A stretch of DNA of 59,621 bases from Acidimicrobiia bacterium (lineage in GTDB: Bacteria > Acidobacteriota > Vicinamibacteria > Vicinamibacterales > UBA2999), in NCBI GenBank assembly GCA_016871275.1, contig VFZG01000019.1:1-59621 (forward strand), read 5' to 3'. Positions 36,950 through 54,282 of this stretch are shown here, in pieces; positions within the stretch are counted from its first letter, which is position 1, and every line of letters starts with the position of its first letter. The position numbers and the translations under genes were made by a program. Under the pieces are notes generated by a model. The model was given only the letters and a program-made list of their open reading frames with translations, was not told where the DNA came from and made no database searches.

Positions 36950-39529
36950 ATGAAGAAGTTCTCGTTTGTTGTCATTTCCGCGTGGGTGTTGGCCCTTGGC
37001 CTGCGCCTGTACGCCGATCAATCACCGCAGCCGTCCCAGACGGGCGCGCAGCCGCGCGTGCCGGTGACTTCTACGCCGGCGGCCGCGCCGAAGCCACAGA
37101 GTGCCCCGGCCATGGCCGCGAGCCACTCTGCCGCATCCGCCTCGACCTTCGCGTCACAGAACGCGCTCGTGAAGCAGTACTGCATGACGTGCCACAACGA
37201 TCGCGGCAAGGACAGCGCCGGCGGGCTGTCGCTGCAGTCGTTCGATACAGCGAAGGTCGGCCAGGAGGCGCACGTTGCGGAAGTGGCCGAGAAGATGATC
37301 CGCAAGCTGCGTGCGGGGATGATGCCGCCGTCGAACGCGCGGCGCCCCGAGGGCAACGCGCTCGCCGCGCTGGCCGACTCCATGGAATCGCGCCTCGACC
37401 AGGCCGCCGCGCTCACCCCCAATCCCGGACGTCGTCCGTTCCAGCGGCTCACTCGCGCCGAATACGCCCGCGCGGTCAACGCGCTGTTGAACCTCGACGT
37501 CGACGTCACCGCATTCCTGCCGCCCGACACCATCAGCGCCGGCTTCGACAACATCGCCGATGCGCAGTCGTTCTCGGCGACGTTGATGGAAGGCTACCTG
37601 CGGGCGGCCAGCCGCATCAGCGCGCTGGCCGTCGGCGACCCGAACGCCAGCGCGTCGGAAGTCACCTACAAGGTGCCGCGCACCGGCTCGCAGATGCAGC
37701 ACGTCGAAGGCGCGCCGTTCGGCACGCGCGGCGGCCTGGCGACCACGCATACGTTCCCGGCGGACGGCGAATACAGCTTCCGCATGCAGCTGCACTCGAT
37801 CCCCACCGGCCAGTTGTTCGGCAGCACGGTGCGCGGCGAGCTGCTCGAGGTCTCAATCGACGGCGAGCGCGCCGCAGTGCTCGAAATCAATCCGCGCATG
37901 AGCGAAGCCGATCCGAACGGCATGAACATCGTGACGCCGCGGATTCACGTCAAGGCCGGCACGCACCGGCTGGCCGCCGCGTTCGTCCAGCGCTTCGACG
38001 CGGTGCCCGACGATCTGATGCCGCCGATCGATCACACGCTGGCGGATTCGCAGATCGGCTCCGGGTTCGGCATCACCACGCTGCCGCACCTGCGCGAGTT
38101 TGCGGTCAGCGGCCCGTTCAAGGTCACCGGCGTGTCGGAGACGCCGAGCCGCAGGAAGATCTTCGCGTGCCGGCCGACGTCGACGCCCGAAGAGGCGTCG
38201 TGCGCGAACGAGATCATCCGCAAGATCGCGACGCTGGCGTATCGCGGTCCGGTGAGCGCCCAGGACCTCGAGGGGCTGACCAGGTTCTACGCGCAGGGCC
38301 GTAAGGATGGCGACTTCGAGTCGGGCATCCGCATGGCGTTGCAGGCCGTGCTGGCCAGCCCGCGGTTCCTGTTCCGCCTCGAAGAAGCGCCGGCCACGGT
38401 GCGCGCCGCGCAGGGCCGGGCCCCTGGCGCGGCCGCCGCGCCAGGGTCGCAGATCTATCGCATCACCGATCTCGACCTGGCGACGCGGCTGTCGTTCTTC
38501 ATCTGGGGCTCGGGCCCGGACGAGGAGCTGTTGAAGCACGCGCAGCGCGGCACGTTGCGCGGTCCCGGCGTGCTGACCGCCCAGGTCAAGCGCATGCTGG
38601 CCAGCCCGAAGAGCGACGCGTTGGCGACACGATTCGGTGCGCAGTGGCTGCGGCTGCAGGACCTCGGGAAGATCTATCCCGACGCGCTGCTGTTCCCGTA
38701 CTACGACTACGGCCTCGGCGAAGCGCTTCGCAAGGAAACGGAACTGTTCTTCGACAGCATCGTGCGCGAGGACCGCAGCCTCATCGAGCTGATCACCGCC
38801 GACTACACCTTCGTCAACGAGCGCATTGCGAAGCACTACGGCATTCCCGACGTCAACGGCGCCGACTTCCGCCGCGTGACGCTGACCGATGACAACCGCC
38901 GCGGCCTGCTCGGACAGGGCAGCATCCTGGCCTTGACGTCGGTCGCCGACCGCACCTCGCCGGTGCTGCGCGGCAAGTGGATCATGGAGGTGCTGCTGGC
39001 CTCGCCGCCGCCGGCGCCGCCCCCGAACGTTCCGACGCTCGACGAGACCAGGGCGGAGGGCGGCGACGGCCACTTGCTCAGCACGCGCCAGCGCATGGAG
39101 CAGCACCGCAGCAATCCGCAATGCAGCTCGTGTCACCGCGTGATCGACCCGCTCGGCCTGGCGCTCGAGAACTTCGACGTCACCGGCCGCTGGCGCATTC
39201 GCGACAACGGCCACCTGGTCGATCCGGTCGGCGATCTGTACGACGGCACGAAGATGGCCGGGCCGGGCGGCCTGCGCGCCGCCCTGCTCAAGCACCAGGA
39301 CATGTTCTTCACCAGCTTCGCCGAGAGCCTGATGACCTACGCCCTCGGCCGCCGCGTGGAGTACTTCGATCAACCCGCGATTCGCCGGATCATCCGCGAC
39401 GCGGCCAGGGACCACCACCGCGTCTCGGCGTTCGTGCTGGGCGTGGTGCACAGCCGCGCGTTTCAAATGTCGCGCGCGGACGACGTCACGACAACGAACG
39501 ACGACAAAGCAGTAGCCGGTATCCGGTAG
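36950..39529 (+). CDS. diheme DUF1587/DUF1592/DUF1588/DUF1585 protein (cassette copy A)
   Basis: The ATG at 36950 is chosen over an in-frame ATG at 36863 because it begins a signal peptide (MKKFSFVVISAWVLALGLRL). The 859-residue product has a cytochrome-like N-terminus with heme site CMTCH, then DUF1587 (RLTRAEYARAVNALLNLDVD), DUF1592 (YRITDLDLATRLSFFIWGSG), DUF1588 (RGLLGQGSILALTSVADRTS) ending in the second heme site CSSCHRVIDPLG, and DUF1585 (FAESLMTYALGRRVEYFDQP). These proteins are known from Planctomycetes, Verrucomicrobia and Acidobacteria but have no established substrate. It is the first gene of a cassette that recurs at 42919 and 48548. Confidence 0.88.
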   Translation: MKKFSFVVISAWVLALGLRLYADQSPQPSQTGAQPRVPVTSTPAAAPKPQSAPAMAASHSAASASTFASQNALVKQYCMTCHNDRGKDSAGGLSLQSFDTAKVGQEAHVAEVAEKMIRKLRAGMMPPSNARRPEGNALAALADSMESRLDQAAALTPNPGRRPFQRLTRAEYARAVNALLNLDVDVTAFLPPDTISAGFDNIADAQSFSATLMEGYLRAASRISALAVGDPNASASEVTYKVPRTGSQMQHVEGAPFGTRGGLATTHTFPADGEYSFRMQLHSIPTGQLFGSTVRGELLEVSIDGERAAVLEINPRMSEADPNGMNIVTPRIHVKAGTHRLAAAFVQRFDAVPDDLMPPIDHTLADSQIGSGFGITTLPHLREFAVSGPFKVTGVSETPSRRKIFACRPTSTPEEASCANEIIRKIATLAYRGPVSAQDLEGLTRFYAQGRKDGDFESGIRMALQAVLASPRFLFRLEEAPATVRAAQGRAPGAAAAPGSQIYRITDLDLATRLSFFIWGSGPDEELLKHAQRGTLRGPGVLTAQVKRMLASPKSDALATRFGAQWLRLQDLGKIYPDALLFPYYDYGLGEALRKETELFFDSIVREDRSLIELITADYTFVNERIAKHYGIPDVNGADFRRVTLTDDNRRGLLGQGSILALTSVADRTSPVLRGKWIMEVLLASPPPAPPPNVPTLDETRAEGGDGHLLSTRQRMEQHRSNPQCSSCHRVIDPLGLALENFDVTGRWRIRDNGHLVDPVGDLYDGTKMAGPGGLRAALLKHQDMFFTSFAESLMTYALGRRVEYFDQPAIRRIIRDAARDHHRVSAFVLGVVHSRAFQMSRADDVTTTNDDKAVAGIR

Positions 39530-39558
39530 TCGGTCGCCAATAAGGGCAGGAGAACTCG

Positions 39559-40977
39559 ATGGAGTTTCTGACGAAAAAGCACATCTCACGCCGCACGTTG
39601 CTGCGCGGTCTTGGCGTCACGATGGCGCTGCCGATGCTCGAAGCGATGACGCCGTCGGGCACGGCGTTCGCCAGGACGGCCGCCGGCGCGAAGCAGATTC
39701 GCATGTCGGCGATCGAGATGGTGCACGGGTCGGCCGGCGCCACCCAGGTCGGCATCGGCAAGAACTACTGGTCACCGGCGGAGGTCGGCACCGCGTTCGA
39801 CCTGAGCCCCGGCTCGCTGTCGACGCTGGAGCCGTTCCGCGACTACCTGACCATCGTCAGCAACACCGACGTCCGCAACGCCGAGGCGTTCACGCTGCCG
39901 GAAATCGGCGCGGACCACTTTCGCTCGAGCGCGGTGTTTCTGACGCAGGCGCACCCCAAGAAGACGCAGGGCTCGGACGTCTACGCCGGCACGTCGCTGG
40001 ATCAGCTCTATGCCCAGAAGTTCGGGCAGGATACGGCGATCCCGTCGATGCAGTTGTCGATCGAGACCGTCGACCAGTCCGGCGGCTGCGCCTACGGTTA
40101 CAGCTGCGCCTATACCGACAGCATCAGCTGGGCGAATCCCACCAAGCCGCTGCCGATGGTGCGCGACCCGCGCGCGGTGTTCGATGCGCTGTTCGGCGTC
40201 GGCGCCACGCCGGTCGAGCGCGCCCAGAGCCGGCGCGCCGACAAGAGCATCCTCGACTGGGTCTCGACCGAAGTGTCGCGCCTCAGCAAGGAGCTGGGCG
40301 CCTCGGACCGCCGGCGCCTGAACCAGTACCTCACCGAAATTCGCGAGATCGAGCGACGCATCCAGCGCATCGAGGCGCAGAACAGCAGCGGCGACGTGCG
40401 CGAGCTGCCCGACGCGCCGGTCGGCGTGCCGGATGACTTCGCCGAGCACGTCAAGCTGATGTTCGACCTGCAGGTGCTGGCGTTCGCGTCCGACACGACC
40501 CGCGTGTTCTCGTTCAAGATGGGTCGCGACGGCTCGGCGCGCGTCTACCCGGCCAGCGGCGTGCGCGGCGCGTTCCACCCGGCGTCGCACCACGGCGAGC
40601 GCGAGGAACGCGTCACCGACTTCATGAAGATCAACCGCTACCACGTCTCGATGGTGCCCTACTTCCTCGAGAAGCTGAAGGAGACCCCGGACGGCGACGG
40701 CCAGAACCTGCTCGACAACACGCTGGTGATCTACGGCTCGCCGATGGGCAACTCGAACGTGCACAACCACAAGCGCTGCCCGCTGTTCTTCGCCGGCAAG
40801 GCCGGCGGCGCGCTGCGTGGCAACCTGCACCTCAAGGCGGCCGACGGCACGCCGATGGCCAATGCGTTCCTGTCGGTGCTGCAGGACATCGGCCTGCACG
40901 ACCTCGCGTCGCTGGGCGACAGCACCGGCCGCTTCGATCTGAAGACGGTGCCTGCAACGACGGCGGCGGCTGAGTAG
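39559..40977 (+). CDS. DUF1552 protein, Tat-exported (cassette copy A)
   Basis: A 472-residue protein with AGGAGA upstream of the ATG. Residues 1-38 form a twin-arginine leader (ISRRTLLRGLGVTMALPMLE). Conserved DUF1552 segments are EMVHGSAGATQVG, IVSNTDVRNAEAF, DHFRSSAVFLTQAHPK, GGCAYGYSCAYTDSISW, SDTTRVFSFKMGRD, FHPASHHG and YGSPMGNSNVHNHKRCPLF. The repeated His and Cys residues could bind metals. DUF1552 genes commonly follow DUF1592 genes, so the two products probably act together outside the cytoplasm. The reaction is unknown. Confidence 0.88.
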   Translation: MEFLTKKHISRRTLLRGLGVTMALPMLEAMTPSGTAFARTAAGAKQIRMSAIEMVHGSAGATQVGIGKNYWSPAEVGTAFDLSPGSLSTLEPFRDYLTIVSNTDVRNAEAFTLPEIGADHFRSSAVFLTQAHPKKTQGSDVYAGTSLDQLYAQKFGQDTAIPSMQLSIETVDQSGGCAYGYSCAYTDSISWANPTKPLPMVRDPRAVFDALFGVGATPVERAQSRRADKSILDWVSTEVSRLSKELGASDRRRLNQYLTEIREIERRIQRIEAQNSSGDVRELPDAPVGVPDDFAEHVKLMFDLQVLAFASDTTRVFSFKMGRDGSARVYPASGVRGAFHPASHHGEREERVTDFMKINRYHVSMVPYFLEKLKETPDGDGQNLLDNTLVIYGSPMGNSNVHNHKRCPLFFAGKAGGALRGNLHLKAADGTPMANAFLSVLQDIGLHDLASLGDSTGRFDLKTVPATTAAAE

Positions 40978-40980
40978 AAC

Positions 40981-41075
40981 GCCACGGAGCCACGGAGCAC
41001 GCTGTTCTCAATGCGAATGCTGCCGAGCGCCACTGGCGTTTCCAACGAGTCTCCGTGTCTTCGTGGCTCCGTGGC
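40981..41075. repeat. CCACGGAG-type inverted repeat between DUF1552 and ankyrin genes (copy A)
   Basis: GCCACGGAGCCACGGAGCAC (40981-41000) faces CTCCGTGTCTTCGTGGCTCC and GTGGC (41051-41075); the arms pair imperfectly around a 50-bp loop. Related words occur at the equivalent position of copies B and C. Confidence 0.7.
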
Positions 41076-41102
41076 TGGATGGTGACTGTGAAGGACTGAC
41101 TT

Positions 41103-42890
41103 ATGCCGAGAGCAAGTCGCAACGTGGGATTGGGTCTGGTGGTCGCGGCGATGCTGACCGGCCTGGTGCATGGCGCCGGCCCGGCGCCGGTGGCTGACGC
41201 TGCCATGGCCAGGAACCGCGAGGCCGTGAAGGCGCTGCTGAAATCCGGCGCCGACGTCAACGCGGCGCAGGGCGACGGCATGACCGCGCTGCACTGGGCG
41301 GCCCGCGCCGGCGATCTCGAGCTGGCGCAGATGCTGCTTTACGCCGGCGCCAACGTCAAGGCGACGACCCGCCTCGGCGCCTACACGCCGCTGATGATGG
41401 CGGCCGACCAGGGACACGCACCGGTGATCGCAGCGTTGCTGGCCGGCGGCGCGGATGCCAAAGCCGCCAACTCGCTCGGCACGACGCCATTGATGCTGGC
41501 CTCGGCGTCCGGTAATCCGCAGGCCGTGACCACCATCGTCGAGAACGGCGGTGAGCTCGCGGCCAGGGAAAAGACCTTCGGGCAGACGCCGTTGATGTTC
41601 GCGGCATCGAACAATCGCGTTGAAGCGGTGAAGGCGTTGATCAAGGCCGGCGCCGACCTCGAGGCGACGTCGAAGGTGAACAACGTCGGCAACCTGAGCG
41701 GTCCGCAGCAGGAATTCCTGGCGCAGGCGTCGGGTTCGGGCAACCAGGCCGGCGGCAACGGCACGGGCCGCAGCGGCCAGGTGGTGGCAACCGGGTCGGG
41801 CCAGGCTCCGCCCAACGCGCAGGGACAGGCGCAGGGTGGCGGCGGTGGCGGCCGTGGTGGTTTCGGCGGCAGGCCCGGCGTCGAGCGCCCGTTCTTCTAC
41901 AACGAATTGATCGGCTACCAGGGCGGTCACACCGCGCTGATTCTGGCCGCGCGCAGCGGCTACGCCGATGTCGTCAAGACGCTGGTGGCGGCCGGCGCGG
42001 GCGTCAATCACATCAGCGCCGGCGATCGCACGAGCGCGATGTTGATCGCGGCCATCAATGGGCACTTCGATCTCGCTCGGTGGCTGCTCGATCAGGGCGC
42101 CGACCCGAACGCCGCCTCGGAGAACGGCGTGACGGCGTTGTACGCGTCGTTGAACGTCACCTGGGCGCCGCGCGCGCTCTACCCGCAGCCGCGCGCCTTC
42201 AACCAGCAGCAGATCACCTATCTTGATTTCATGAAGGCGCTGCTCGCCAAGGGCGCCGATCCGAATGCGCGCCTCACCAAGAAGGTGTGGTACTCGGAGT
42301 ACAACTTCGACCTCGCCGGCGTGGACGAGGTCGGCGCAACGCCGTTCTGGCGCGCCGCGTTCGCCGGCGACGTGCCGGCGATGCAGTTGCTCATCGACCA
42401 CGGCGCCGACCCCAATATTTCCACGATGAAGCCGGCGGGCCGCCGGCCGCTCGGCGATGTCGGCGCGGCGCGGGAGTCCAAGGACGTGTCGGGCCTCGAG
42501 CCGGTTCCGATGGGTGGCCCGGGCATTCCGCCGCTGCAGGCGGCGGCCGGCGTCGGTTTCGGTGAAGGCTTCGCCGCCAACTCCCATATTCACTCGCCGG
42601 CCGGCTTCCTGCCCGGCATCAGGTTCATCGTCGAGCAGACCGGCGCGGATGTGAACGCGGTCGATCACGAGGGCAACACCGCGCTGCATCATGCGGCGGC
42701 GCGCGGCGACGTCGACAGCATTCTCTACCTGGTGTCGAAGGGCGCCGACGTCAAGAAGGTGAACCGCGAAGGGCAGACGGTGGCCGACATGGCCAACGGC
42801 CCGGTGCAGCGCGTGCAGCCCTGGCCGGAGGCGCTGATGCTCCTCGAGAAGCTGGGATCGAAGAACAGCAATAAGTGTGTGTCTTGTTAG
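41103..42890 (+). CDS. secreted ankyrin-repeat protein ending in CVSC (cassette copy A)
   Basis: A 595-residue protein with GAAGGA upstream of the ATG and a signal-like N-terminus (residues 1-22, to HGAGPAP). Eight or more ankyrin repeats follow (DGMTALHWAARAGDLELAQM, LLYAGANVKATTRLGAYTPL). A Gly/Gln-rich linker near residues 235-260 separates two ankyrin blocks, and the second opens with FFYNELIGYQGGHTALILAA. The protein ends in KNSNKCVSC. The sibling proteins at 46899 and 52603 end in RCITC and KCISC. Ankyrin repeats imply protein-protein contact; a role as scaffold of the two preceding redox proteins is inference. Confidence 0.85.
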   Translation: MPRASRNVGLGLVVAAMLTGLVHGAGPAPVADAAMARNREAVKALLKSGADVNAAQGDGMTALHWAARAGDLELAQMLLYAGANVKATTRLGAYTPLMMAADQGHAPVIAALLAGGADAKAANSLGTTPLMLASASGNPQAVTTIVENGGELAAREKTFGQTPLMFAASNNRVEAVKALIKAGADLEATSKVNNVGNLSGPQQEFLAQASGSGNQAGGNGTGRSGQVVATGSGQAPPNAQGQAQGGGGGGRGGFGGRPGVERPFFYNELIGYQGGHTALILAARSGYADVVKTLVAAGAGVNHISAGDRTSAMLIAAINGHFDLARWLLDQGADPNAASENGVTALYASLNVTWAPRALYPQPRAFNQQQITYLDFMKALLAKGADPNARLTKKVWYSEYNFDLAGVDEVGATPFWRAAFAGDVPAMQLLIDHGADPNISTMKPAGRRPLGDVGAARESKDVSGLEPVPMGGPGIPPLQAAAGVGFGEGFAANSHIHSPAGFLPGIRFIVEQTGADVNAVDHEGNTALHHAAARGDVDSILYLVSKGADVKKVNREGQTVADMANGPVQRVQPWPEALMLLEKLGSKNSNKCVSC

Positions 42891-42910
42891 GCGAATAGGC
42901 GAATAGGCCG
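42891..42910. repeat. 8-bp tandem array (GCGAATAG) between cassette copies A and B
   Basis: GCGAATAG occurs twice directly after the TAG stop at 42888-42890, followed by a degenerate third (GCCG). TAG at 42888, 42896 and 42904 closes all three frames. Confidence 0.65.
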
Positions 42911-42918
42911 AAGCTCAG

Positions 42919-45366
42919 ATGAAAAGACTCGCGGTTGCCCTTCTCGTTCTCGTGCCGGTGTCAATCGCTGCCCAACAGGCGGCGAAACCTGTTGCCGCGC
43001 CGGTGAAGCCGGTGGTATCCCACGCGCCGGCGGTCATGACGATGTTGCCGGCCGAACAGACGGCGCTCGTCAAGCAGTACTGCGTCACGTGCCATAACGA
43101 TCGCAACAAGGACCGCACCAGCGGACTGTCGTTTCAGTCGTTCGACGCCAACCAGATCACCGACCATGCCGACGTCGCCGAGAAGATGATCCGCCGCCTG
43201 CGCGCCGGCATGATGCCGCCGGCGGGCTCGCGGCGTCCAGGCCAGGCGACGATCGACGCGCTCGTCACTGCGATGGAGACGCGCCTGGATCGCGCGGCGG
43301 CCCTCAATCCGAACCCGGGCTGGCGTCCCTCGCAGCGGTTGAACCGCGCTGAGTACCAGCGTGCGGTGAAGGACCTGCTGGCGGTCGACGTCGACGTCGA
43401 CCAGTTCCTGCCGGCCGATACGGTCAGCGACAGTTTCGACAACATCGCCGATGCCCAGACGATTTCGCCGACGCTGATGGAAGGCTACCTGCGCGCGGCC
43501 AGCCAGATCAGCCGTCTCGCGGTCGGCGACCGCAACGCCTCGGCCTCGTCGACGACCTGGAAGGTGCCGCGCACCGCGTCGCAGATGCGGCACGTCGAAG
43601 GCGCGCCGCTCGGCACGCGCGGCGGCATGTCGGTGCTGCACGTGTTCCCGGCCGACGGTGAGTATTTCTTCAAGATCATGTTGCACATGGGCCCGACCGG
43701 CGACTTGTTCGGCGGCCCATACGCCGGCGAGAAGATCGAAGTCTCAATCGACGGCGAGCGTGTGGCGTTGATGGACATCAACCCGCGCATGAACGAGCAG
43801 GACGCCACCGGTATGACGATGCAGACGCCGCGCGTGCACATCAAGGCGGGCCAGCGCCGGGTGTCGGCAGCGTTCCTGCAGCGCTTCGACGGCCCGGCCG
43901 ACGACCTGATCATGCCGATCGAGCACACCCTTGCCGACACCAACATCGGCGAAGTGTTCGGCACGACCGCGCTGACGCACCTGCGTGACTTCACGGTGAG
44001 CGGTCCGCTGTCGGTCACCGGCGTATCGGAAACAGACAGCCGACGCAAACTGTTCGCCTGCCGCCCCACGAGCGCCTCCGAAGAGCCGGTCTGCGCCGCC
44101 GACATCGTGCGCAAGCTGGCGTTGCAGGCGTATCGCGGCAACCTGCCGGCCGAAGACTTCAGGGACCTGATGTCGTTCTACGAGCGCGGCCGCAAGCAGA
44201 GCGATTTCGAGGGCGGCATCCGGATGGCCGTGCAGGCGATTCTCGCGAGCCCGCGCTTCCTGTTCCGCATCGAGCAGGTGCCGTCTACGCTCAAGCCCGG
44301 CCAGACCTATCGGATCAGCGATGCGGATCTGGCGTCGCGCCTGTCGTTCTTTCTCTGGGGATCGATGCCGGACGCCGCGCTGCTGAAGGTCGCCGCCAGC
44401 GGCACGCTTCGCACGCCGGCGGTGTTCGACAAGCAGCTGCAGCGCATGCTGGCCGACGGCCGGTCCGAGGCGCTGGCGACCCGGTTTGCGTCGCAGTGGC
44501 TGCGGCTGCAGGACGTGGAAAAGGTCCGTCCCGACCACCACTTCTACTCGTACTGGGACACCACGCTGTCGCAGGCGATGGTGCGCGAGACCGAGCTGTT
44601 CGTCGACAGTTTGATCCGCGAGGATCGCCCGGTGACGGATCTGCTGACGGCCGATCACACGTTCGTGAACGAGCGGCTCGCCAGGCACTACGGCATACCC
44701 AACATTCTCGGCAACGAGTACCGGCGCGTCACGATCGCCGACCCGAACCGTCGCGGCGTGCTGGGCCAGGGCAGCGTGCTGCTGCAGACGTCGATTGCCG
44801 ATCGCACCTCGCCGGTGCTGCGGGGCAAGTGGGTGATGGAAGTGCTGCTTGGCTCGCCGCCGCCCCCGCCGCCGCCCAACGTGCCGCTGCTCGAAGAGAC
44901 GGCGACGGTGGATGCCGGCAAGGTGCTGTCGACGCGCGAGCGCATGGAAATGCATCGCAAGAATCCGGCGTGCAGCTCGTGCCATAAAGTGATCGATCCG
45001 CTCGGCCTGGCGCTCGAGAATTTCGACGTCACCGGGGTGTGGCGCATCAAGGACGCCGGCAGCCCGATCGATCCGGTTGGCGATCTCTACGACGGCACCA
45101 GGCTCGACGGCCCGATTGCGCTGCGCAACGCGCTGCTCGAGCACCAGGACGTCCTGATGCTCAGCTTCACCGAGAGCCTGATGACCTACGCGCTGGGCCG
45201 CCGCGTCGAACACTTCGACATGCCGGCGATCCGGCAGATCGTGAATAACGCCAGGGCGAAGAACTACCGGTTCTCGGCATTCATCTCTGGCGTCGCCAAC
45301 AGCGCCGCCTTCCGCATGGGGCGCGTCGCCCCGGCGGAGATGACCGAGGAGAGAAGTGAGAAGTAG
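42919..45366 (+). CDS. diheme DUF1587/DUF1592/DUF1588/DUF1585 protein (cassette copy B)
   Basis: An 815-residue paralogue of 36950 with a signal peptide (MKRLAVALLVLVPVSIAAQQ). Heme sites are CVTCH at the N-terminus and CSSCHKVIDPLG near residue 690. DUF1587 (RLNRAEYQRAVKDLLAVDVD), DUF1592 (YRISDADLASRLSFFLWGSM), DUF1588 (RGVLGQGSVLLQTSIADRTS) and DUF1585 (FTESLMTYALGRRVEHFDMP) are all present. The domain order is the same as in copies A and C. No Shine-Dalgarno sequence is obvious in front of the ATG, and the gene may depend on the preceding ankyrin gene. Confidence 0.88.
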   Translation: MKRLAVALLVLVPVSIAAQQAAKPVAAPVKPVVSHAPAVMTMLPAEQTALVKQYCVTCHNDRNKDRTSGLSFQSFDANQITDHADVAEKMIRRLRAGMMPPAGSRRPGQATIDALVTAMETRLDRAAALNPNPGWRPSQRLNRAEYQRAVKDLLAVDVDVDQFLPADTVSDSFDNIADAQTISPTLMEGYLRAASQISRLAVGDRNASASSTTWKVPRTASQMRHVEGAPLGTRGGMSVLHVFPADGEYFFKIMLHMGPTGDLFGGPYAGEKIEVSIDGERVALMDINPRMNEQDATGMTMQTPRVHIKAGQRRVSAAFLQRFDGPADDLIMPIEHTLADTNIGEVFGTTALTHLRDFTVSGPLSVTGVSETDSRRKLFACRPTSASEEPVCAADIVRKLALQAYRGNLPAEDFRDLMSFYERGRKQSDFEGGIRMAVQAILASPRFLFRIEQVPSTLKPGQTYRISDADLASRLSFFLWGSMPDAALLKVAASGTLRTPAVFDKQLQRMLADGRSEALATRFASQWLRLQDVEKVRPDHHFYSYWDTTLSQAMVRETELFVDSLIREDRPVTDLLTADHTFVNERLARHYGIPNILGNEYRRVTIADPNRRGVLGQGSVLLQTSIADRTSPVLRGKWVMEVLLGSPPPPPPPNVPLLEETATVDAGKVLSTRERMEMHRKNPACSSCHKVIDPLGLALENFDVTGVWRIKDAGSPIDPVGDLYDGTRLDGPIALRNALLEHQDVLMLSFTESLMTYALGRRVEHFDMPAIRQIVNNARAKNYRFSAFISGVANSAAFRMGRVAPAEMTEERSEK

Positions 45367-45428
45367 GAATTAGGAATTAGGAATTAGGAAGTAGCGCCCG
45401 CTAGCCCGCTAGCCTGCTAGCCCGCTAG
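45367..45428. repeat. two adjacent stop-bearing tandem arrays: 7-bp GAATTAG and 8-bp CCCGCTAG
   Basis: Directly behind the TAG stop (45364-45366) come GAATTAG three times and GAAGTAG once, then CCCGCTAG, CCCGCTAG, CCTGCTAG and CCCGCTAG (45397-45428). Every unit carries TAG; 7- and 8-bp periods distribute them over all three frames. The array ends just before the Shine-Dalgarno sequence of the next gene. Confidence 0.85.
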
Positions 45429-45446
45429 CCCGATGAGGAGATCGCG

Positions 45447-46847: not shown

Positions 46848-46857
46848 ATGCGCCGCC

Positions 46858-46876
46858 GAGACACGGAGACACGGAG
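46858..46876. repeat. GAGACACG-type repeat in front of the ankyrin gene (copy B)
   Basis: GAGACACGGAGACACGGAG lies between the DUF1552 stop and the ankyrin start; it matches the word family of the repeats at 40981 and 52504, but here only one arm is present. Confidence 0.6.
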
Positions 46877-46898
46877 CCTTTTCCTTATGGGATCTCAG

Positions 46899-48554
46899 AT
46901 GCGCAGGTTGCTTTCCCTCAGCGCCGCCCTCAGCTTCGCCGTTGCGCTCAGCGCGCAATCGGCGGCGCCAATCGCCACCGCGGCCCAGAACAGCGATCGT
47001 GACGGCGTGCGCGCGCTACTGAAAAAGGGCGCGGACGTGAACGAAGCGCAGGGCGACGGTACTACCGCGTTGCACTGGGCGGCCATCAAGGGCGACGCCG
47101 AGATGACGCAGATGCTGCTGGTGGCCGGCGCCAACGTGCGCGCCACCACTCGCCTGGGCTCCTACACGGCGCTGTATCTGGCGGCCAAGGGCGGCTACTC
47201 GGATGTCGTCGCGGCGCTGCTCGTCGCGGGTGCCGATGCCAAGGCGGTGACCTCCAACGGCACGACGCCGCTGATGATCGCGGCCGCGGCCGGTGACACG
47301 AAGTCGATCACCTCGCTGGTCGAGAACGGCGCCGAGATCAACGCCACGGAAACCAAGGGTGAGACGCCGCTGATGTTCGCCGCCGGCTTCAATCGTCTCG
47401 AGGCGGTCAGGTTGCTGTTGGCGAAGGGGGCGGATCACAAGGCCACCACCAAGGTGACCGACCTGTTCGGGCTGACGGCGCCGGAAGAAGAGAGCATGGC
47501 GCGGCAGGGCATGGCGCGGACCACCACGCGCCCGGCGGACGTGGCCGGGGCGACCCGCGGCTATCGTTACAACGAGCTGATCAGCACGCAGGGCGGGCTC
47601 ACCGCGCTGCTGTTCGCCGCGCGCCAGGGCTACACCGACGTCGTCAAGGCGCTGCTTGACGCCGGGGCCGACATCGGCCAGCGTAACGCAGGGGATAAAA
47701 CGACACCGCTGGTGATGTCGATCATCAACGGTCACTTCGACCTGGCGAGCTACCTGATCGAGCGGGGCGCCGACGTCAATGCCGCGGCGTTCAACGGCGT
47801 GGCGCCGCTCTATGCGGCGCTGAACATCCAGTGGGCGCCGAAGTCGCTGTATCCGAGCCCGAAGGCCCACCAGCAGCAGAAGACGACCTATCTCGAGCTG
47901 ATGCAGGCGCTGCTCTCGAAGGGCGCCGATCCGAACCGGCGCGTCAGCCGGAAGGTCTGGTACCAGGCCTACAACTCGGATTACGCGGGCTTCGACGAGG
48001 CCGGCGCGACGCCCTTCTTCCGCGCGGCGTACGCCAGCGACGTGGCGGCCATGAAGCTGCTCCTGGCGCACGGCGCCGATCCCCACATCGGCACGTTCAA
48101 GCCGGCGGGTCGTCCGTTCACGGGTGAGGGCACGCGGCAGATTCAGGACATCTCGGGTCTGGCGGTGATTCCCTACGGCGGCCCCGGCATTCTGCCGCTG
48201 CACGCCGCCACCGGCGTCGGCTACGGTGAAGGCTTCGCCGCCAACTCGCATCGCTACGCGCCGACCGGCTTCCTGCCGGCCATCAAGTTCCTGGTCGAGG
48301 AGACCGGCGCCGACGTCAACGCCGTCGACCACGAAGGCAACACGCCGCTGCATCTGTGCGCGTCACGCGGCGACAACGCGTGCATCACGTTCCTGGTGTC
48401 GAAGGGCGCCGACGTCAGGCGCGTCAACCGCGAGGGCAATACCACCGTCGACATGGCCAACGGTCCCGTGCAGCGCACGCAGCCGTACCCGGACACCATC
48501 AAGCTGCTCGAAGGGCTTGGCGCCAAGAACAATCACCGATGCATCACATGCTGA
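46899..48554 (+). CDS. secreted ankyrin-repeat protein ending in CITC (cassette copy B)
   Basis: An open frame starts at 46848 right behind the DUF1552 stop, but its first residues are a translation of the GAGACACG repeat. I therefore choose the ATG at 46899, which begins a signal peptide (MRRLLSLSAALSFAVALSAQ). The 551-residue product contains DGTTALHWAAIKGDAEMTQM and LLVAGANVRATTRLGSYTAL ankyrin repeats, with YNELISTQGGLTALLFAARQ opening the second block as in copies A and C. It ends in KNNHRCITC. Its last seven bases (ATGCTGA) overlap the start of the next cassette gene. The ATG at 46887 is an alternative. Confidence 0.82.
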   Translation: MRRLLSLSAALSFAVALSAQSAAPIATAAQNSDRDGVRALLKKGADVNEAQGDGTTALHWAAIKGDAEMTQMLLVAGANVRATTRLGSYTALYLAAKGGYSDVVAALLVAGADAKAVTSNGTTPLMIAAAAGDTKSITSLVENGAEINATETKGETPLMFAAGFNRLEAVRLLLAKGADHKATTKVTDLFGLTAPEEESMARQGMARTTTRPADVAGATRGYRYNELISTQGGLTALLFAARQGYTDVVKALLDAGADIGQRNAGDKTTPLVMSIINGHFDLASYLIERGADVNAAAFNGVAPLYAALNIQWAPKSLYPSPKAHQQQKTTYLELMQALLSKGADPNRRVSRKVWYQAYNSDYAGFDEAGATPFFRAAYASDVAAMKLLLAHGADPHIGTFKPAGRPFTGEGTRQIQDISGLAVIPYGGPGILPLHAATGVGYGEGFAANSHRYAPTGFLPAIKFLVEETGADVNAVDHEGNTPLHLCASRGDNACITFLVSKGADVRRVNREGNTTVDMANGPVQRTQPYPDTIKLLEGLGAKNNHRCITC

Positions 48555-51073
48555 GACTGCGGGCCACGGGCTACCGGCGACGGGGCCATTCACTCGCGGC
48601 GGGCGCCGCGCTGCTGGGGGTGTGCGCGGTTGGCGTGTCGGCGCAGCAGGCGCCGAAGCCGCCTGTGAAGCCGGTTGCCGCGCATGCCGCGATACCTGCC
48701 GGCACGAAAGCCACCGAGCAGACCGCCCTCGTCAAGCAGTACTGCGTCGGCTGCCACAGCGACCGCGGCAAGGCCGGCGGCCTGACGCTGGCGTCGTTCG
48801 ACGCCGCGACGATCGAGGCCAACGGCGAGCTCACCGAAAAAATCATCCGCAAGCTGCGCGCCGGCATGATGCCCCCGGCCGGTGCCCGCCGCCCCGAGCC
48901 GGCGGTGCTGCAGGCGATGGTGACGTCGTTTGAATCGCGGATGGATCGGCAGGCGGTGCTGAACCCGAATCCCGGCTCGCGCCCGTTCCAGCGTCTCAAT
49001 CGCGCGGAGTACGCCAACGCGGTGCGCGACCTGCTGCATCTCGACGTCGACCTCTCCACCTATCTGCCGCCGGACACGATCAGCCACGGGTTCGACAACG
49101 TGGCGGACGCGCAGACGTTCTCGCCGACCTTGATGGACGGCTACCTGCGCGCGGCCAGCCAGATCAGCCGGCTGGCGGTGGGCGATCGCCAGGCGTCGGC
49201 CTCGTCGGTGACCTACAAGATTCCGCGCGCCGCGTCGCAGATGCGCCGCGTCGACGGCGCGCCGATGGGCACGCGCGGCGGCTCCTCGGTGGTCCACACG
49301 TTCCCGGCCGACGGTCACTACGTGCTGAAGGCGTCGTTGCACTACGAGCCGCTCGGCGGCCTCGCCGGCCGCAACTCGATGACCGCCTACGACCTCAAGG
49401 AACAGGTCGAGTTCTCGGTGAACGGCGAGCGCGTGGCGGTGTTCGATCTGAATACCCGGATGAGCGAGACCGATCCGAAGAACAGCCTCGAGCTGGTGAC
49501 GCCGCCGGTGCACATCAAGGCCGGGCCGCAGCGCGTGACCGCCGCCTTCGTCCAGAAGCTCGATGGCCCGGTCGACGATCTGCTGATGCCGCTCCAGAAC
49601 ACCCTCGCCGACGTCAGCATCTCGTGGGGTGTCACCATGCTGCCGCATCTGCGCGACTTCATCGTGCGGGGGCCGCTCGACGTCACGGGCGTCTCGGATA
49701 CGCCGAGCCGCCTGAAAATCTTCACCTGCCGTCCGACCGCCGCCGCCGAAGAGGAGGCCTGCGCGACGGAGATCGTCAGGAAGCTCTCGACGCAGGCGTT
49801 CCGTGGCGCGCCAACCGCGGCCGACCTGCAGGACGCGATGAAGTTCTACGAGCAGGGCCGCGCCAAGGGCGGCTTCGAGAGCGGCATTCGCACCGCGGTG
49901 CAGTCGATCCTGATGAGCCCGCGCTTCCTGTTCCGTCTCGAGCAGCAGCCGGCGGGCATTCGCACCGCCGCCGCCGGGGCCCCCGGCGCGCGGACCTTGC
50001 GCGACGGCGTGGCGTATCGCATTGCCGACGAGGACCTGGCCTCGCGCCTGTCGTTCTTCCTCTGGGGCTCGGTGCCTGACGCCGAGCTGGTGCGCGCCGC
50101 CACTGCGGGCTCCCTGCGGACCGCGGCCGGCCTCGAGAAGCAGGTCCGCCGCATGCTGGCCGACCGCAAGTCCGAGTCGCTGTCGACGCGGTTTGCCTCG
50201 CAGTGGCTCCGCCTGCAGGATCTCGACAAGATCTTCCCGGACTACCTGCTGTATCCCCAGTACGACGACACGCTGGCGCGGTCGATGAAGAAGGAGACCG
50301 AGCTGTTCTTCGACTCGATCGTCCGCGAGGACCGCAGCATTCTCGATCTGCTCACCGCCGACTACTCGTTCGTCAACGAACGGCTGGCGATTCACTACGA
50401 CATCCCGAACATCACCGGCAGTGCGTTCCAGCGCGTGACGCTGCCGCCGTATCGCCGTGGCGTGCTCGGTCACGGCAGCATCCTGACGCTGACGTCGGTG
50501 GCCGATCGCACCTCGCCGGTGCAGCGCGGCAAGTGGGTCATGGAGGTGCTGCTGGCCTCGCCGCCGCCAGCGCCGCCGCCCAATGTCCCGTCGCTGGACG
50601 ATTCGGTGAAGGCCACCGAGGGCGGCAGGATGCTGTCGACGCGCGAGCGCATGGAGCAGCACCGCGCCAACCCGAACTGCACGTCGTGCCATCGCGTCAT
50701 CGATCCGCTCGGCCTGGCGCTCGAGAACTTCGACGTCACTGGCGCCTACCGCATCAAGGACAACGAGATCCCGGTCGACGTGACGGGCGATCTCTACGAT
50801 GGCACGCGCATGGAAGGCCCGGCCGGCCTGCGTGCGGCCTTGCTCGAGCACCAGGACATGCTGCTCACCAGCTTTACGGAGAGCCTGCTGACCTACGCGG
50901 TCGGACGCCGCGTTGCATACACGGACATGCCGGCGATTCGCGCGATCGTGAAAGACGCGTCGAAGAAGGACAACAAGCTGTCGGCGTTCGTGCTGGGCGT
51001 GGTCAACAGCCAGGCCTTCAAGATGGGGATGTCGGACTCGGCAAAGCAGGACACCCGCGCCGCCGAGCGGTGA
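48548..51073 (+). CDS. diheme DUF1587/DUF1592/DUF1588/DUF1585 protein (cassette copy C)
   Basis: The open frame runs further upstream inside the ankyrin gene, but the ATG at 48548 gives a signal peptide (RRRGHSLAAGAALLGVCAVG). The gene overlaps the ankyrin stop by 7 nt (ATGCTGA), so translation is coupled. The 841-residue product has heme sites CVGCH and CTSCHRVIDPLG, DUF1587 (RLNRAEYANAVRDLLHLDVD), DUF1592 (YRIADEDLASRLSFFLWGSV), DUF1588 (RGVLGHGSILTLTSVADRTS) and DUF1585 (FTESLLTYAVGRRVAYTDMP). The heme-site context CVGCHSDRGKAGG differs from the CHND of copies A and B. Confidence 0.88.
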   Translation: MLRLRATGYRRRGHSLAAGAALLGVCAVGVSAQQAPKPPVKPVAAHAAIPAGTKATEQTALVKQYCVGCHSDRGKAGGLTLASFDAATIEANGELTEKIIRKLRAGMMPPAGARRPEPAVLQAMVTSFESRMDRQAVLNPNPGSRPFQRLNRAEYANAVRDLLHLDVDLSTYLPPDTISHGFDNVADAQTFSPTLMDGYLRAASQISRLAVGDRQASASSVTYKIPRAASQMRRVDGAPMGTRGGSSVVHTFPADGHYVLKASLHYEPLGGLAGRNSMTAYDLKEQVEFSVNGERVAVFDLNTRMSETDPKNSLELVTPPVHIKAGPQRVTAAFVQKLDGPVDDLLMPLQNTLADVSISWGVTMLPHLRDFIVRGPLDVTGVSDTPSRLKIFTCRPTAAAEEEACATEIVRKLSTQAFRGAPTAADLQDAMKFYEQGRAKGGFESGIRTAVQSILMSPRFLFRLEQQPAGIRTAAAGAPGARTLRDGVAYRIADEDLASRLSFFLWGSVPDAELVRAATAGSLRTAAGLEKQVRRMLADRKSESLSTRFASQWLRLQDLDKIFPDYLLYPQYDDTLARSMKKETELFFDSIVREDRSILDLLTADYSFVNERLAIHYDIPNITGSAFQRVTLPPYRRGVLGHGSILTLTSVADRTSPVQRGKWVMEVLLASPPPAPPPNVPSLDDSVKATEGGRMLSTRERMEQHRANPNCTSCHRVIDPLGLALENFDVTGAYRIKDNEIPVDVTGDLYDGTRMEGPAGLRAALLEHQDMLLTSFTESLLTYAVGRRVAYTDMPAIRAIVKDASKKDNKLSAFVLGVVNSQAFKMGMSDSAKQDTRAAER

Positions 51074-51092
51074 TCAGGGATCAGGGATCAGG
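51072..51092. repeat. 7-bp tandem array (GATCAGG)
   Basis: Three exact copies of GATCAGG begin within the TGA stop of the DUF1592 gene and end in the Shine-Dalgarno sequence of the next gene. The plus strand has one TGA; the minus-strand reading (CCTGATC) carries TGA every 7 nt. Confidence 0.8.
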
Positions 51093-51099
51093 AGAACAC

Positions 51100-52503
51100 A
51101 TGTATCTCACTCGGAAGCAGTTGTCGCGGCGCATGGTCCTCAAAGGTGTTGGCGTCACCATGGCGTTGCCGTTCCTCGAGGCGATGGTGCCGGCGCGCGC
51201 GTCGGCTCAGGCCGCGCGCGGCAAGGTGCGCCTGGCGGCCATTGAAATGGTGCATGGCTCCGCCGGCAGCACCGCATTCGGCATCAAGCAGAACATGTGG
51301 GCGCCGGCCGCCGTCGGACGCGAGTTCGATCTGTCACCGAGCAGCCTGCTGCCGCTCGAGCCGTTCCGCCAGCACCTCACCATCATCAGCAACACCGACG
51401 TGCGCAACGCCGAGGCGTTCACCGCCCCTGAGATCGGCGGCGACCACTTCCGCTCGAGTGCGGTGTTCCTGACCCAGATGCATCCGAAGCAAACCCAGGG
51501 CTCGGACGTCTACGTCGGCACGTCGCTCGACCAGTACTACGCCCAGCGCGCCGGCCAGGACACCGCGATTCCATCGATGCAGCTGTGCATCGAGAACGTC
51601 GACCAGGCGGGTGGCTGCTCGTATGGCTACTCGTGCACCTACACCGACTCAATCAGCTGGTCGGCGCCCGACCAGCCGCTGCCGATGATTCGCGACCCGC
51701 GCACCGTGTTCGACGCCCTGTTCGGGGTCGGCGCCACGCCGGCCGAGCGCCAGGAGCGCCGCGCCGAGGACAAGAGCATCCTTGACTGGCTGGGCGGCGC
51801 GGTGGCGCGCCTCAACAAGCACCTCGGCGCCGCCGACCAGGCGCGTCTGGCCGACTACCTCGACGACGTCCGTGAGATCGAGCGCCGCATCCAGCAGGTC
51901 GAGGCCGCCAACAGCAAGGGCGAGCCGCGCGAGTTGCCGGGCGCGCCGATTGGCGTGCCCGACGATTTCGCCGAGCACGTCAAGCTGATGTTCGATTTGC
52001 AGGCGCTGGCGTTCGCGTCGGACACCACCCGCGTGTTCGCCTTCAAGCTCGGCCGCGATGCGTCAAACCGCGTCTATGCGGAGAGCGGCTACAAGGCGGC
52101 GTTCCACTCGGCGTCGCACCACCAGGATCGCGACGATCGCATCACCGAGTTCGCCAAGATCAACAAGTACCATGTCAGTATGATTCCGTACTTCCTGGAC
52201 AAGCTGAAGAACACCAGGGACGGCGACGCGACGCTGCTGGACAACACGCTGTTGATCTACGGCTCGCCAATGGGCAACTCGAACCTGCACAACCACAAGC
52301 GGTGCCCGCTGTTCCTGGCCGGCCACGCCGGCGGCGCCTTGAAGGGCGGCCTGCACCTGCGCGCCGCCGACGGCACGCCGATGGCAAACGTGTTCCTGGC
52401 CGTGTCGCAGATGCTCGGTATGAACGACCTCAAGTCGTTCGGCGACAGCACCGGCGCGTTCGATTTGAATACGGTGCCGGCAACGACGGCCGCCGCAGTT
52501 TAA
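51100..52503 (+). CDS. DUF1552 protein, Tat-exported (cassette copy C)
   Basis: The open frame extends upstream through the DUF1592 gene, but the ATG at 51100 has AGGAGA upstream and begins a leader (LSRRMVLKGVGVTMALPFLE). The 467-residue paralogue contains EMVHGSAGSTAFG, SNTDVRNAEAFTAPEIGGD, GGCSYGYSCTYTDSISW, SDTTRVFAFKLGRD, FHSASHHQDRDDR and YGSPMGNSNLHNHKRCPLF. Copy C differs from A and B in the leader, with MYLTRKQL in place of MEFLTKKH or MECLTRKH. Confidence 0.88.
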   Translation: MYLTRKQLSRRMVLKGVGVTMALPFLEAMVPARASAQAARGKVRLAAIEMVHGSAGSTAFGIKQNMWAPAAVGREFDLSPSSLLPLEPFRQHLTIISNTDVRNAEAFTAPEIGGDHFRSSAVFLTQMHPKQTQGSDVYVGTSLDQYYAQRAGQDTAIPSMQLCIENVDQAGGCSYGYSCTYTDSISWSAPDQPLPMIRDPRTVFDALFGVGATPAERQERRAEDKSILDWLGGAVARLNKHLGAADQARLADYLDDVREIERRIQQVEAANSKGEPRELPGAPIGVPDDFAEHVKLMFDLQALAFASDTTRVFAFKLGRDASNRVYAESGYKAAFHSASHHQDRDDRITEFAKINKYHVSMIPYFLDKLKNTRDGDATLLDNTLLIYGSPMGNSNLHNHKRCPLFLAGHAGGALKGGLHLRAADGTPMANVFLAVSQMLGMNDLKSFGDSTGAFDLNTVPATTAAAV

Positions 52504-52584
52504 ATGTGCCGCGGAGACACCGAGGCACGGAGGTGGCCTGGTTTGAGCCCCAGCTCTGTGCTCCCGTGTCTCCGTGGCGCATTC
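52504..52584. repeat. CGGAGACACG-type inverted repeat between DUF1552 and ankyrin genes (copy C)
   Basis: Left arm ATGTGCCGCGGAGACACCGA, continuing with GGCACGGAGG (to 52533), faces CTCCCGTGTCTCCGTGGCGC and ATTC (52561-52584); the arms pair imperfectly around a loop. It occupies the same position as the repeat in copy A. Confidence 0.7.
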
Positions 52585-52602
52585 GTGTGACTGGAAGCCA
52601 CT

Positions 52603-54282
52603 ATGCATAGAGTCGTTTCGACAATTGGGTTGGTCGTTGCGCTGTCGATTGGCGCGCATGCGTCGATCGCGGCTTCGCCGATTGCCGATGCGGCGTCGCG
52701 AGGCGATCGCGAGGCGGTCAAGTCGCTGTTGCAGAAGGCCGCCGACGTGAATGCGGCGCAGGGCGACGGCATGACGGCGCTGCACTGGGCGGCCATGAAC
52801 GGCGACGCCGAACTGGCGCAAATGCTGATCGTCGCCGGCGCCAACATCAAGGCGACGACGAGGCTGGGCGCCTACACGCCGCTCTACCTGGCCAGCCAGC
52901 ATGGCCAGGCCCAGGTGCTGCAGGCGCTGATCAAGGCCGGCGCCGACATCAAGACCGGCACCAACAACGGCACGACGCCGCTGATGGCTGCCGCCGCCTC
53001 GGGCCGGCTCGACGCGGTTCGTGTGCTGCTCGAGCACGGCGCCGACGTGAACGCGAAAGACGGCGTGCGTCACCAGACGCCGCTGATGTACGCCGCGGCA
53101 TCGAACCGAGCGGCCGTCATCGAGTTGCTCGCGGCCAGGGGCGCGGACCTGACGGCGACCAGCAAGGTCTCGGAACTGGCCAACCTGTCGCGTGACGGCG
53201 CGGGGTTCGGCGGTAATCCGCAGGTGCCCGGCGCCCCGGGCGCCCCGGCGCGTCGTCCGCAAATGGCCGGCGTCGATCGCAACTATCAGCTCAATGAACT
53301 GATCGTCGCGCACGGCGGCCTGACGCCGCTGCTGTATGCGGTCCGCCAGGGCTTCCACGAATCCACCGAGGCGCTCCTCGAAGCCGGCGCCGATGTGAAT
53401 CTGGTCTCGGCCGGAGACAAGACGACCCCGCTGGTGATGGCGATCATCAACGGCCACTTCGATCTCGCCAAGGTGCTGCTCGATCGGGGCGCCAACCCGA
53501 ACGCCACTGCCGCCAACGGCGCCAGTCCGCTGTATGCGGTGCTGAACGTCGAGTGGGCGCCGAAGGCGCTCTATCCGCAGCCGCAGGCGCACAAGCAGCA
53601 GCAGCTCGGCTACCTCGACCTGATGGAGGCGCTGATCGACAAGGGCGCCGACGTCAACGCCCGTACCCGCATGAAGATCTGGTACTCGGGCTATAGCTTC
53701 GACCTGTCGGGCGTCGATGAGATCGGCGCCAGCGTGTTCTGGCGCGCCGCCTACGCCAGCGACATCGCGGCGATGAGGCTGCTGGTCGCCAATGGTGCCG
53801 ACCCCAACGTGCCCACCATGAAGCCCGCCGGCCGGGCCCGCTTCGGCGACATGCTCGAGACCCGCGAGGTGATCGATCAGTCAGGCCTGCCGCCGGTGCC
53901 GATCGGCGGCCCGTCGGTGACGCCGCTGCACGCCGCCGCCGGCGTCGGCTACGGCGAGGGCTTTGGCGCCAACTCGCATCGCTACGCGCCGACCGGCATG
54001 CTGGCGGCGGTGCAGTATCTGGTGGAGGAGTTCGGCGCCGACGTCAACGCCGCCGATCATGAAGGCAACACTGCGCTGCACCATGCGGCGGCGCGCGGTG
54101 ACAATGAGATGATCCTCTATCTGGTCGCCAAGGGGGCCAATGTGAAGGCCGTGGACCGAGAGGGTCGGACCACGGTGGACATGGCCAACGGCCCCGTGCA
54201 GCGTATTCAACCGTTTCCCGAGACCATCGCCCTTCTCGAAAAGCTCGGAGCAAAGAACAACCATAAGTGCATTTCCTGTTAG
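52603..54282 (+). CDS. secreted ankyrin-repeat protein ending in CISC (cassette copy C)
   Basis: A 559-residue paralogue with a signal peptide (MHRVVSTIGLVVALSIGAHA). Ankyrin repeats include DGMTALHWAAMNGDAELAQM and LIVAGANIKATTRLGAYTPL in block one, then YQLNELIVAHGGLTPLLYAV opening block two, and DHEGNTALHHAAARGDNEMI near the end. It ends in KNNHKCISC. The next gene begins inside its last codons with a GTG 16 nt before this stop, so the barrel downstream is probably translated from the same mRNA. Confidence 0.85.
   Translation: MHRVVSTIGLVVALSIGAHASIAASPIADAASRGDREAVKSLLQKAADVNAAQGDGMTALHWAAMNGDAELAQMLIVAGANIKATTRLGAYTPLYLASQHGQAQVLQALIKAGADIKTGTNNGTTPLMAAAASGRLDAVRVLLEHGADVNAKDGVRHQTPLMYAAASNRAAVIELLAARGADLTATSKVSELANLSRDGAGFGGNPQVPGAPGAPARRPQMAGVDRNYQLNELIVAHGGLTPLLYAVRQGFHESTEALLEAGADVNLVSAGDKTTPLVMAIINGHFDLAKVLLDRGANPNATAANGASPLYAVLNVEWAPKALYPQPQAHKQQQLGYLDLMEALIDKGADVNARTRMKIWYSGYSFDLSGVDEIGASVFWRAAYASDIAAMRLLVANGADPNVPTMKPAGRARFGDMLETREVIDQSGLPPVPIGGPSVTPLHAAAGVGYGEGFGANSHRYAPTGMLAAVQYLVEEFGADVNAADHEGNTALHHAAARGDNEMILYLVAKGANVKAVDREGRTTVDMANGPVQRIQPFPETIALLEKLGAKNNHKCISC

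Follow-up and report, generated by a model that had tools for sequence, protein, structure and literature searches.

Three copies of one gene cassette lie head to tail on the plus strand at positions 36950-54282 of the window, the 59,621 nt stretch of DNA analysed here (contig C19 in a draft genome of 3.96 Mb, GenBank assembly GCA_016871275.1, from an Acidimicrobiia bacterium that GTDB places in the Acidobacteriota). Each cassette encodes a DUF1592-type diheme cytochrome (here named CYT), a DUF1552 protein with a twin-arginine translocation (Tat)-type start (HXX) and an exported ankyrin-repeat protein (ANK), in that order. The array is one small instance of a wider pattern, in which the three genes recur together in many relatives and their products have diverged together. 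The most likely reading is a periplasmic redox unit that was diversified by copy. We propose, tentatively and with something short of even confidence, that CYT, HXX and ANK of one cassette make up a periplasmic redox module and that the tandem copies are old isoforms for related substrates; carbohydrate oxidation is perhaps the use to which such modules are put.

Pfam domains DUF1587, DUF1595, DUF1592, DUF1588 and DUF1585 were found above cut-off and in this order in all three CYT, DUF1552 in all three HXX (E 2e-85 to 4e-86) and ankyrin repeats in all three ANK. An earlier, sequence-only reading of this DNA had described three tandem cassettes of fixed order and orientation, and both the Pfam matches and the coordinates agree with it; the first heme sites of CYT-A, CYT-B and CYT-C (CMTCH, CVTCH and CVGCH) are also as given there. 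The features, all on the plus strand, are listed below; gene coordinates include stop codons, and start codons are our choice.

36950..39529, plus strand: CYT-A, with PSCyt1, DUF1587, a carbohydrate-binding module (CBM)-like insert, DUF1595, DUF1592, DUF1588 and DUF1585 in order (Pfam); hemes CMTCH and CSSCH; signal peptide assigned by eye
39559..40977, plus strand: HXX-A, DUF1552 (HXXSHH) with a twin-arginine start; position 163 is Ser, not Cys (Pfam, sequence)
41103..42890, plus strand: ANK-A, exported ankyrin-repeat protein, terminal CVSC (Pfam, sequence)
42876..42887, plus strand: CxxC tail of ANK-A (computed from sequence)
42919..45366, plus strand: CYT-B, hemes CVTCH and CSSCH (Pfam)
45447..46847, plus strand: HXX-B (Pfam, sequence)
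46899..48554, plus strand: ANK-B, frame open from 46848, terminal CITC (Pfam, sequence)
48540..48551, plus strand: CxxC tail of ANK-B (sequence)
48548..51073, plus strand: CYT-C, overlapping the ANK-B stop by 7 nt; hemes CVGCH and CTSCH (Pfam; AlphaFold2 model)
49190..49690, plus strand: predicted CBM35/36-like beta-sandwich insert of CYT-C, residues 215-381 (AlphaFold2 model, fold matches)
51100..52503, plus strand: HXX-C (Pfam; AlphaFold2 model)
52105..52122, plus strand: HxxSHH motif of HXX-C, residues 336-341 (sequence)
52603..54282, plus strand: ANK-C, terminal CISC (Pfam, sequence)
54268..54279, plus strand: CxxC tail of ANK-C (sequence)
54267..56618, plus strand: DUF5916 protein, N-terminal part CBM9-like, with CBM9 just under the Pfam cut-off (Pfam)

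The count of three holds for the window and falls short as a measure of extent, since the genome has five more cassettes. A profile search of this genome returned eight DUF1552 and eight DUF1592 matches, all within triplets, and an ankyrin gene follows each of the eight pairs (three on C19 and one each on C22, C27, C37, C45 and C67); ankyrin domains were confirmed in the two divergent cassettes among them. DUF1552 is present in 36 of 43 genomes of the family, with up to 26 copies per genome. A profile of the ankyrin type that ends in CxxC matched 25 of the 43 at E ≤ 1e-80 and, across the class and at E ≤ 1e-120, 86 of 193 genomes in 37 of 104 genera. Three ANK copies on a single contig, at intervals of 5.6-5.8 kb, were also found in G001, G004, G005, G006 and G007; this arrangement is present in 6/9 genomes of the genus set, and the interleaved CYT and HXX were checked in G004 and G007. 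Cassettes on one G004 contig (L006, G004:C32) are approximately 85-90% identical to those of the genome studied here. GTDB contigs bearing the triplet come mostly from Acidobacteriota metagenome-assembled genomes and some from Gemmatimonadota, where three loci (L021, L025 and L027) have tandem cassette copies of their own. The ordered triplet was found in both phyla and on one alphaproteobacterial plasmid, and it is recurrent and multi-copy across relatives.

Linkage was counted strictly and one to one: an HXX was credited with its own CYT when this lay upstream within 1 kb, and the pair with its own ANK when that lay within 1.5 kb of the pair; where ankyrins are shared between pairs, the assignment is arbitrary. 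In group A (the window, L003-L032 and L049-L051; 48 unique HXX), 46/48 HXX could be credited with a CYT, and every one of these 46 pairs with an ANK. The two remaining HXX are the first genes at the ends of L021 and L025, where the CYT of the next cassette follows directly with no ANK between. Group B was picked by DUF1552 alone and consists of 50 HXX from seven other genomes and two divergent loci of the genome studied here. It is a sample: for G015 and G037, 22 of 26 and 19 of 23 DUF1552 matches were listed and not all were included, and the remaining five genomes contributed one or two stretches each. In this group, a CYT could be credited to 44/50 HXX and an ANK to 40 of these 44 pairs. 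Four arrangements occur: ANK lies after HXX on the same strand in 22/40 and before CYT or on the opposite strand in 18/40. Among the ten incomplete sets, L077, L061, L048 and, less clearly, L043 are near the end of a stretch or contig; the other six are not. A looser nearest-neighbour count, which may credit the partner of an adjacent cassette and in which one contig (L006 and L049) enters twice, gave 50/50 for group A and, for group B, 45 CYT and 44 ANK of 50. In the controls, 20 loci of the family DUF1501, ANK was found in one, approximately 4.2 kb away, and in none within 1.5 kb; these controls have a gene context of their own and there is kinship among the cassette loci, which makes this and the neighbour comparisons below rough ones.

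The sequence-only reading had tied its proposal to co-divergence of the three families, and this was found. Trees built from 41 triplets (three of 44 were left out as incomplete) share their main clades in CYT, HXX and ANK, namely the B copies, the C copies and two groups of Gemmatimonadota copies. Further shared clades unite the cassette on contig C45 with Gemmatimonadota, and those on C22 and C27 with their respective relatives. The order among clades varies by tree, often with weak support, and cassette A is loosely placed. In each of the three trees the C45 cassette (L005) clusters with copies from Gemmatimonadota, which suggests either transfer or ancient paralogy. With two divergent triplets removed, the distance matrices of the remaining 39 are correlated at 0.91 (CYT-HXX), 0.92 (CYT-ANK) and 0.88 (HXX-ANK), and none of 5000 within-genome cassette shuffles reached the observed value for any family pair. 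The clades run by copy across relatives and sequences are conserved within copies, which bears out an old duplication whose products have been kept.

The copies differ unevenly. Identity to copy C is 72% and 73% for HXX-A and HXX-B, 61% and 62% for CYT-A and CYT-B, and 57% and 59% for ANK-A and ANK-B. When identity between copies was divided by identity within copies, using 17-18 A, B and C sequences with duplicates removed, the CBM-like insert gave the lowest ratio (0.67, interval 0.61-0.73), compared with 0.76-0.93 for other CYT domains, 0.79-0.84 for HXX and 0.72-0.78 for ANK. As the interval of the insert slightly overlaps those of DUF1592 and DUF1595 and ANK is close, the insert is lowest but does not stand alone. 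Within CYT, divergence between copies peaks at residues 256-290, a segment in which C exceeds A and B in length by a few residues. Divergence of this kind fits a specialisation in ligand binding, and as the copies differ most in the insert and in the ankyrin protein, their substrates are probably related but different. A, B and C would be old isoforms, each conserved on its own.

Two CxxCH motifs are present in all three CYT of the window and are conserved at 95-100% in groups A and B. Foldseek returned no match at E ≤ 0.001 for the AlphaFold2 model of CYT-C (predicted local distance difference test, pLDDT, 79.0; predicted template modelling score, pTM, 0.79). In the proposed module, the CBM35/36-like insert of CYT would bind a glycan-type ligand and its two c-type hemes would carry electrons. 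The pairing of such a cytochrome with DUF1552 is already known. In Verrucomicrobia, PSCyt genes are abundant, PSCyt3 genes usually adjoin one recurrent gene of unknown family, and a role in carbohydrate metabolism has been suggested from CBMs (PMC5615132). The PSCyt3/PSD proteins have the same cytochrome domain set as CYT; an ankyrin partner is not mentioned in the parts of that paper on which we draw, and the term DUF1552 does not occur in its main text (PMC5615132). One DUF1552 protein is among the genes regulated in a stress study of R. baltica, where redox functions were suggested for the related PSD1/PSC2 domains (PMC2754498). Cbp2D of Cellvibrio japonicus resembles CYT in having Pfam DUF1587, two domains with a single CXXCH each and a carbohydrate-binding module; its X183 heme domain is an electron-transfer cytochrome (+193 mV) that donates electrons to lytic polysaccharide monooxygenases (LPMOs) (PMC8981238). 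From what that source describes, Cbp2D differs from CYT in its LPMO partner and in having CBM2 and YceI-like domains in place of an internal CBM-like insert. A CBM2-bearing DUF1592 protein assigned to Cellvibrio has been reported from a lignocellulose community (PMC6004670). In the literature searched, which did not extend to subscription papers, we found neither a paper that names DUF1592 and DUF1552 together nor an ankyrin partner for the pair.

DUF1552 matches were returned from 13 plasmid records, and four were inspected. The Novosphingobium KACC 22771 plasmid (L101) has the full ordered triad, with an ANK that lacks the CxxC tail. The Planctomyces SH-PL62 plasmid has DUF1587, DUF1592, DUF1552 and DUF1080 in that order, and Novosphingobium RL4 has a CYT-HXX pair near which no ankyrin was found. 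The Sphingobium TomMM15 plasmid (L103) encodes a DUF1592 protein with one heme, a DUF1552 protein, a cytochrome c' and a cytochrome b561, with an AraC gene and a TonB receptor gene nearby; its first two genes are annotated as hypothetical, and DUF1552 matches occur in ten Sphingobium plasmid records. As the pair occurs without an ankyrin, we regard CYT-HXX as the core and ANK as a frequent third partner outside this minimal pair. In L103 the first heme domain is absent and cytochromes are instead encoded by genes of their own, an arrangement that speaks for electron transfer. The sequence-only reading spoke of a periplasmic redox complex; we infer its redox and periplasmic parts from the conserved CxxCH motifs, the export signals and the Sphingobium cytochromes, and the direction in which electrons would flow, into or out of HXX, may be either. 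The three products may also form a complex.

A C-terminal CxxC is present in 43/43 unique complete ANK of this subfamily and in 0/43 of the divergent ones, a split made by profile score to which the tail itself contributes slightly. Four Gemmatimonadota ANK have one extra residue after the CxxC. The ANK signal peptide was assigned by eye, and NCBIfam ankyrin matches to ANK were far under their cut-offs. In the redox module, ANK would be a dedicated exported adapter or assembly factor, made together with its partners and here acting through the CxxC tail. ANK could instead be a maturation factor that delivers or guards heme or metal for CYT or HXX, with the tail acting at that step, an explanation that we consider doubtful. 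Ankyrin repeats encoded beside a heme protein are known from AnkB/Cj1386-type partners: Cj1386 binds heme and serves KatA (PMC11442138), Leptospira has an ank-katE operon, and the catalases of P. aeruginosa and C. jejuni are stated to need ankyrin proteins for their activity (PMC7567364). AnkB/KatB of P. aeruginosa and Cj1386/KatA of C. jejuni resemble the cassettes in that a heme enzyme needs an ankyrin protein; as those sources describe them they differ in having a catalase partner and no DUF1592 or DUF1552, and a CxxC tail is not mentioned there. That every ANK lies beside a diheme protein, staying adjacent even where the gene has shifted place or strand, and that the tail holds the only cysteines of ANK-A and ANK-C (ANK-B has two more), would suit a maturation factor. 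A generic chaperone would, however, need no co-diverging copy per cassette, and CYT-HXX pairs without an ankyrin exist. Moreover, c-type hemes are attached by the dedicated Ccm machinery.

All HXX of the window have SRRxxLRG/KG near the start, a Tat-type export signal, and the Pfam TAT_signal was matched in 26/41 HXX relatives at E ≤ 10 (best 0.0034). The best Foldseek matches of the AlphaFold2 model of HXX-C (pLDDT 82.7, pTM 0.85) were sulfatases; in VIA-align the model matched the carrageenan sulfatase 9hh2_A with Z 16.5 over 271 aligned residues (root mean square deviation 4.2), with phosphodiesterases next. HXX is thus predicted to have the alkaline-phosphatase/sulfatase fold. PDB sequence searches with CYT and HXX returned no convincing relative, the matches up to E = 1 being weak and short, and NCBIfam had no name for either protein. 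HHalign aligned the C-terminal part of HXX with DUF1501 over 93 columns (probability 53%; E 1.4e-4 in a single comparison). In 99 HXX rows from groups A and B, a few of them duplicates, H116, H336, H340, C173 and C179 are invariant, H397 is conserved at 98-100% and the histidines of the HxxSHH motif at 96-100%. With the T[GQ] downstream of it as anchor, H116 seems to occupy the position at which sulfatases have their Cys/Ser nucleophile, and H336-x-x-x-H340 is presumably spaced like a metal-ligand pair of alkaline phosphatase. A canonical Ser, Thr or formylglycine was not found by motif, and the nucleophile position seems to be held by the invariant His. DUF1501, a separate Pfam family with an ankyrin in 1/20 loci, has a His at the same anchor (-9 from T[GQ]) in the sequences inspected.

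On this evidence HXX might be an ordinary sulfatase- or phosphatase-type glycan hydrolase and CYT only a binding or anchoring protein, the unit being hydrolytic rather than redox. The fold matches at Z 15-16.5 favour this, as do the sulfatase genes that often neighbour PSCyt genes in Verrucomicrobia (PMC5615132). It is nevertheless improbable in view of the His at the motif-anchored nucleophile position in 99/99 HXX rows, and likewise in DUF1501, the two conserved CxxCH of CYT and the cytochromes c' and b561 beside the Sphingobium pair. In the redox module, HXX would be the cognate Tat-exported partner of CYT. Given what seems to be an invariant His at the nucleophile position, with further conserved His close by, use of a His-rich metal site is more likely than action as a plain hydrolase. 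A coupling of Cys163 of HXX to the CxxC tail of ANK was considered and rejected.

Upstream of the array, the product of 33309-34733 combines a heme-like domain with a weak match, under the Pfam cut-off, to copper type II monooxygenases; a related product, with no Pfam match, is encoded at 7851-9719. An NHL-repeat propeller protein is encoded at 30575-31678, 1.6 kb from the copper-monooxygenase-like gene, and the pair is reminiscent of the two halves of peptide-amidating enzymes. A molybdopterin oxidoreductase-domain protein (34800-36763, minus strand), with a cytochrome c gene adjacent, is divergent from cassette A and has relatives in L005, L038 and L049. Relatives of the 33309-34733 protein occur in 6/73 cassette loci (the window, L016, L026, L030, L049 and L079) and in 0/20 controls. 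These, together with the reduction of LPMOs by X183 of Cbp2D (PMC8981238), would favour CYT as an electron donor to copper monooxygenases. We give this very little credence: such a gene lies near few cassettes, whereas HXX and ANK lie near nearly all. LPMO_10 (PF03067), the one LPMO family searched for, was found in 0/43 genomes of the family, in a search that was positive for Lactococcus lactis among 14 control genomes. TonB-type receptors are near 17/73 cassette loci and 1/20 controls. A nutrient locus was considered on this ground and set aside as weakly supported, the receptors being enriched in G037 and not in G015 among the matches listed. DUF1080 (3-keto-disaccharide hydrolase) adjoins the Planctomyces pair and lies near the L040 cassettes; it is found in 1/73 cassette loci and somewhere in 10/11 genomes. 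As clues from context, the GMC, pyrroloquinoline quinone (PQQ), NHL, copper-monooxygenase-like, amidohydrolase, molybdopterin and DUF1080 neighbours seemed suggestive, but they are sparse.

The genes of the array are spaced as in an operon, as the sequence-only reading had it, lying 26-125 nt apart or overlapping (in order +29, +125, +28, +80, +51, -7, +26 and +99 nt). The DUF5916 gene that it placed after the last cassette does follow, its frame overlapping the ANK-C stop by 16 nt. A similar overlap after cassette C was found in six relatives (L006/L050, which are one contig, L008, L009, L010, L029 and L051); in L007, the DUF5916 match is absent at the end of cassette C. A scan of 36700-56699 for the sigma-70 consensus alone found no sigma-70-like promoters (2.1 expected by chance), and the nine terminator-like sites there are at chance level (10.5 expected). 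That the three genes are co-inherited merely as one operon, with products that act separately, would suit the tight spacing, and in the ordered A type the duplication of linked genes would be enough to produce co-divergence, but it is highly improbable, as descent of one operon would not keep re-making the divergent arrangements of group B in which ANK has moved and is still adjacent.

Several observations weigh against the redox module as we propose it. The ordered triplet is present in 27/27 GTDB loci, but these were found with an ANK query, so ANK is there by selection and the independent evidence from them is that of CYT and HXX. For four group B pairs no own ANK is in view, and two of these pairs (L073 and L075) have more than 5 kb of DNA on either side; four group B HXX well inside their stretches have no CYT of their own; and the pair lacks an ankyrin in the Planctomyces, Sphingobium and Novosphingobium RL4 plasmid records. 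Residues 215-381 of CYT-C match CBM36/35-type sandwiches at Z 8.8-7, the rest of CYT having barely been tested, and even 8.8 is modest, as other jelly-roll sandwiches (Pgp3, TNF and C1q) score 7-8. The putative metal site and nucleophile His of HXX come from anchoring on a sulfatase motif. Cys163 of HXX is not tied to the CxxC tail, as cassette A and L030 have the tail together with Ser163. Sugar-related neighbours are not clearly enriched near cassettes (PQQ 6/73 and 2/20 controls; GMC 5/73 and 1/20), and among the matches listed, outer membrane protein receptors lie within 5 kb of DUF1552 in 8/19 cases in G037 (2.1 expected) and in 2/22 in G015 (1.8 expected).

The first reading of this DNA did not include the CBM-like insert of CYT, the predicted sulfatase-type fold of HXX, the CxxC tail of ANK, the five further cassettes or the pairs without ankyrin. 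Many of the genomes searched have several copies of DUF1592 and DUF1552, and no reaction is assigned to them in the literature searched. A third partner, a defined tail, a predicted fold with a doubtful nucleophile and a candidate specificity segment (CYT residues ~256-290) now yield statements that can be tested, on the residues that would bind metal, the segment that would set specificity and the role of the ankyrin. A bolder and unlikely extension is a new class of cytochrome-linked metalloenzyme, in which an alkaline-phosphatase fold has exchanged its nucleophile for a metal-binding His, a carbohydrate-binding diheme CYT feeds or drains it, and the CxxC of ANK reaches the redox or metal site; if that were true, the paralogous cassettes, with up to 26 DUF1552 genes in a genome, would be a substrate-specific oxidative repertoire with a logic like that of polysaccharide utilisation loci. 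The redox module itself, if the reading is right, would give these bacteria an oxidative glycan system outside the usual glycoside hydrolases. Retained and co-inherited as they are in many relatives, the three genes point to a redox system beyond the cell membrane that has received little study.

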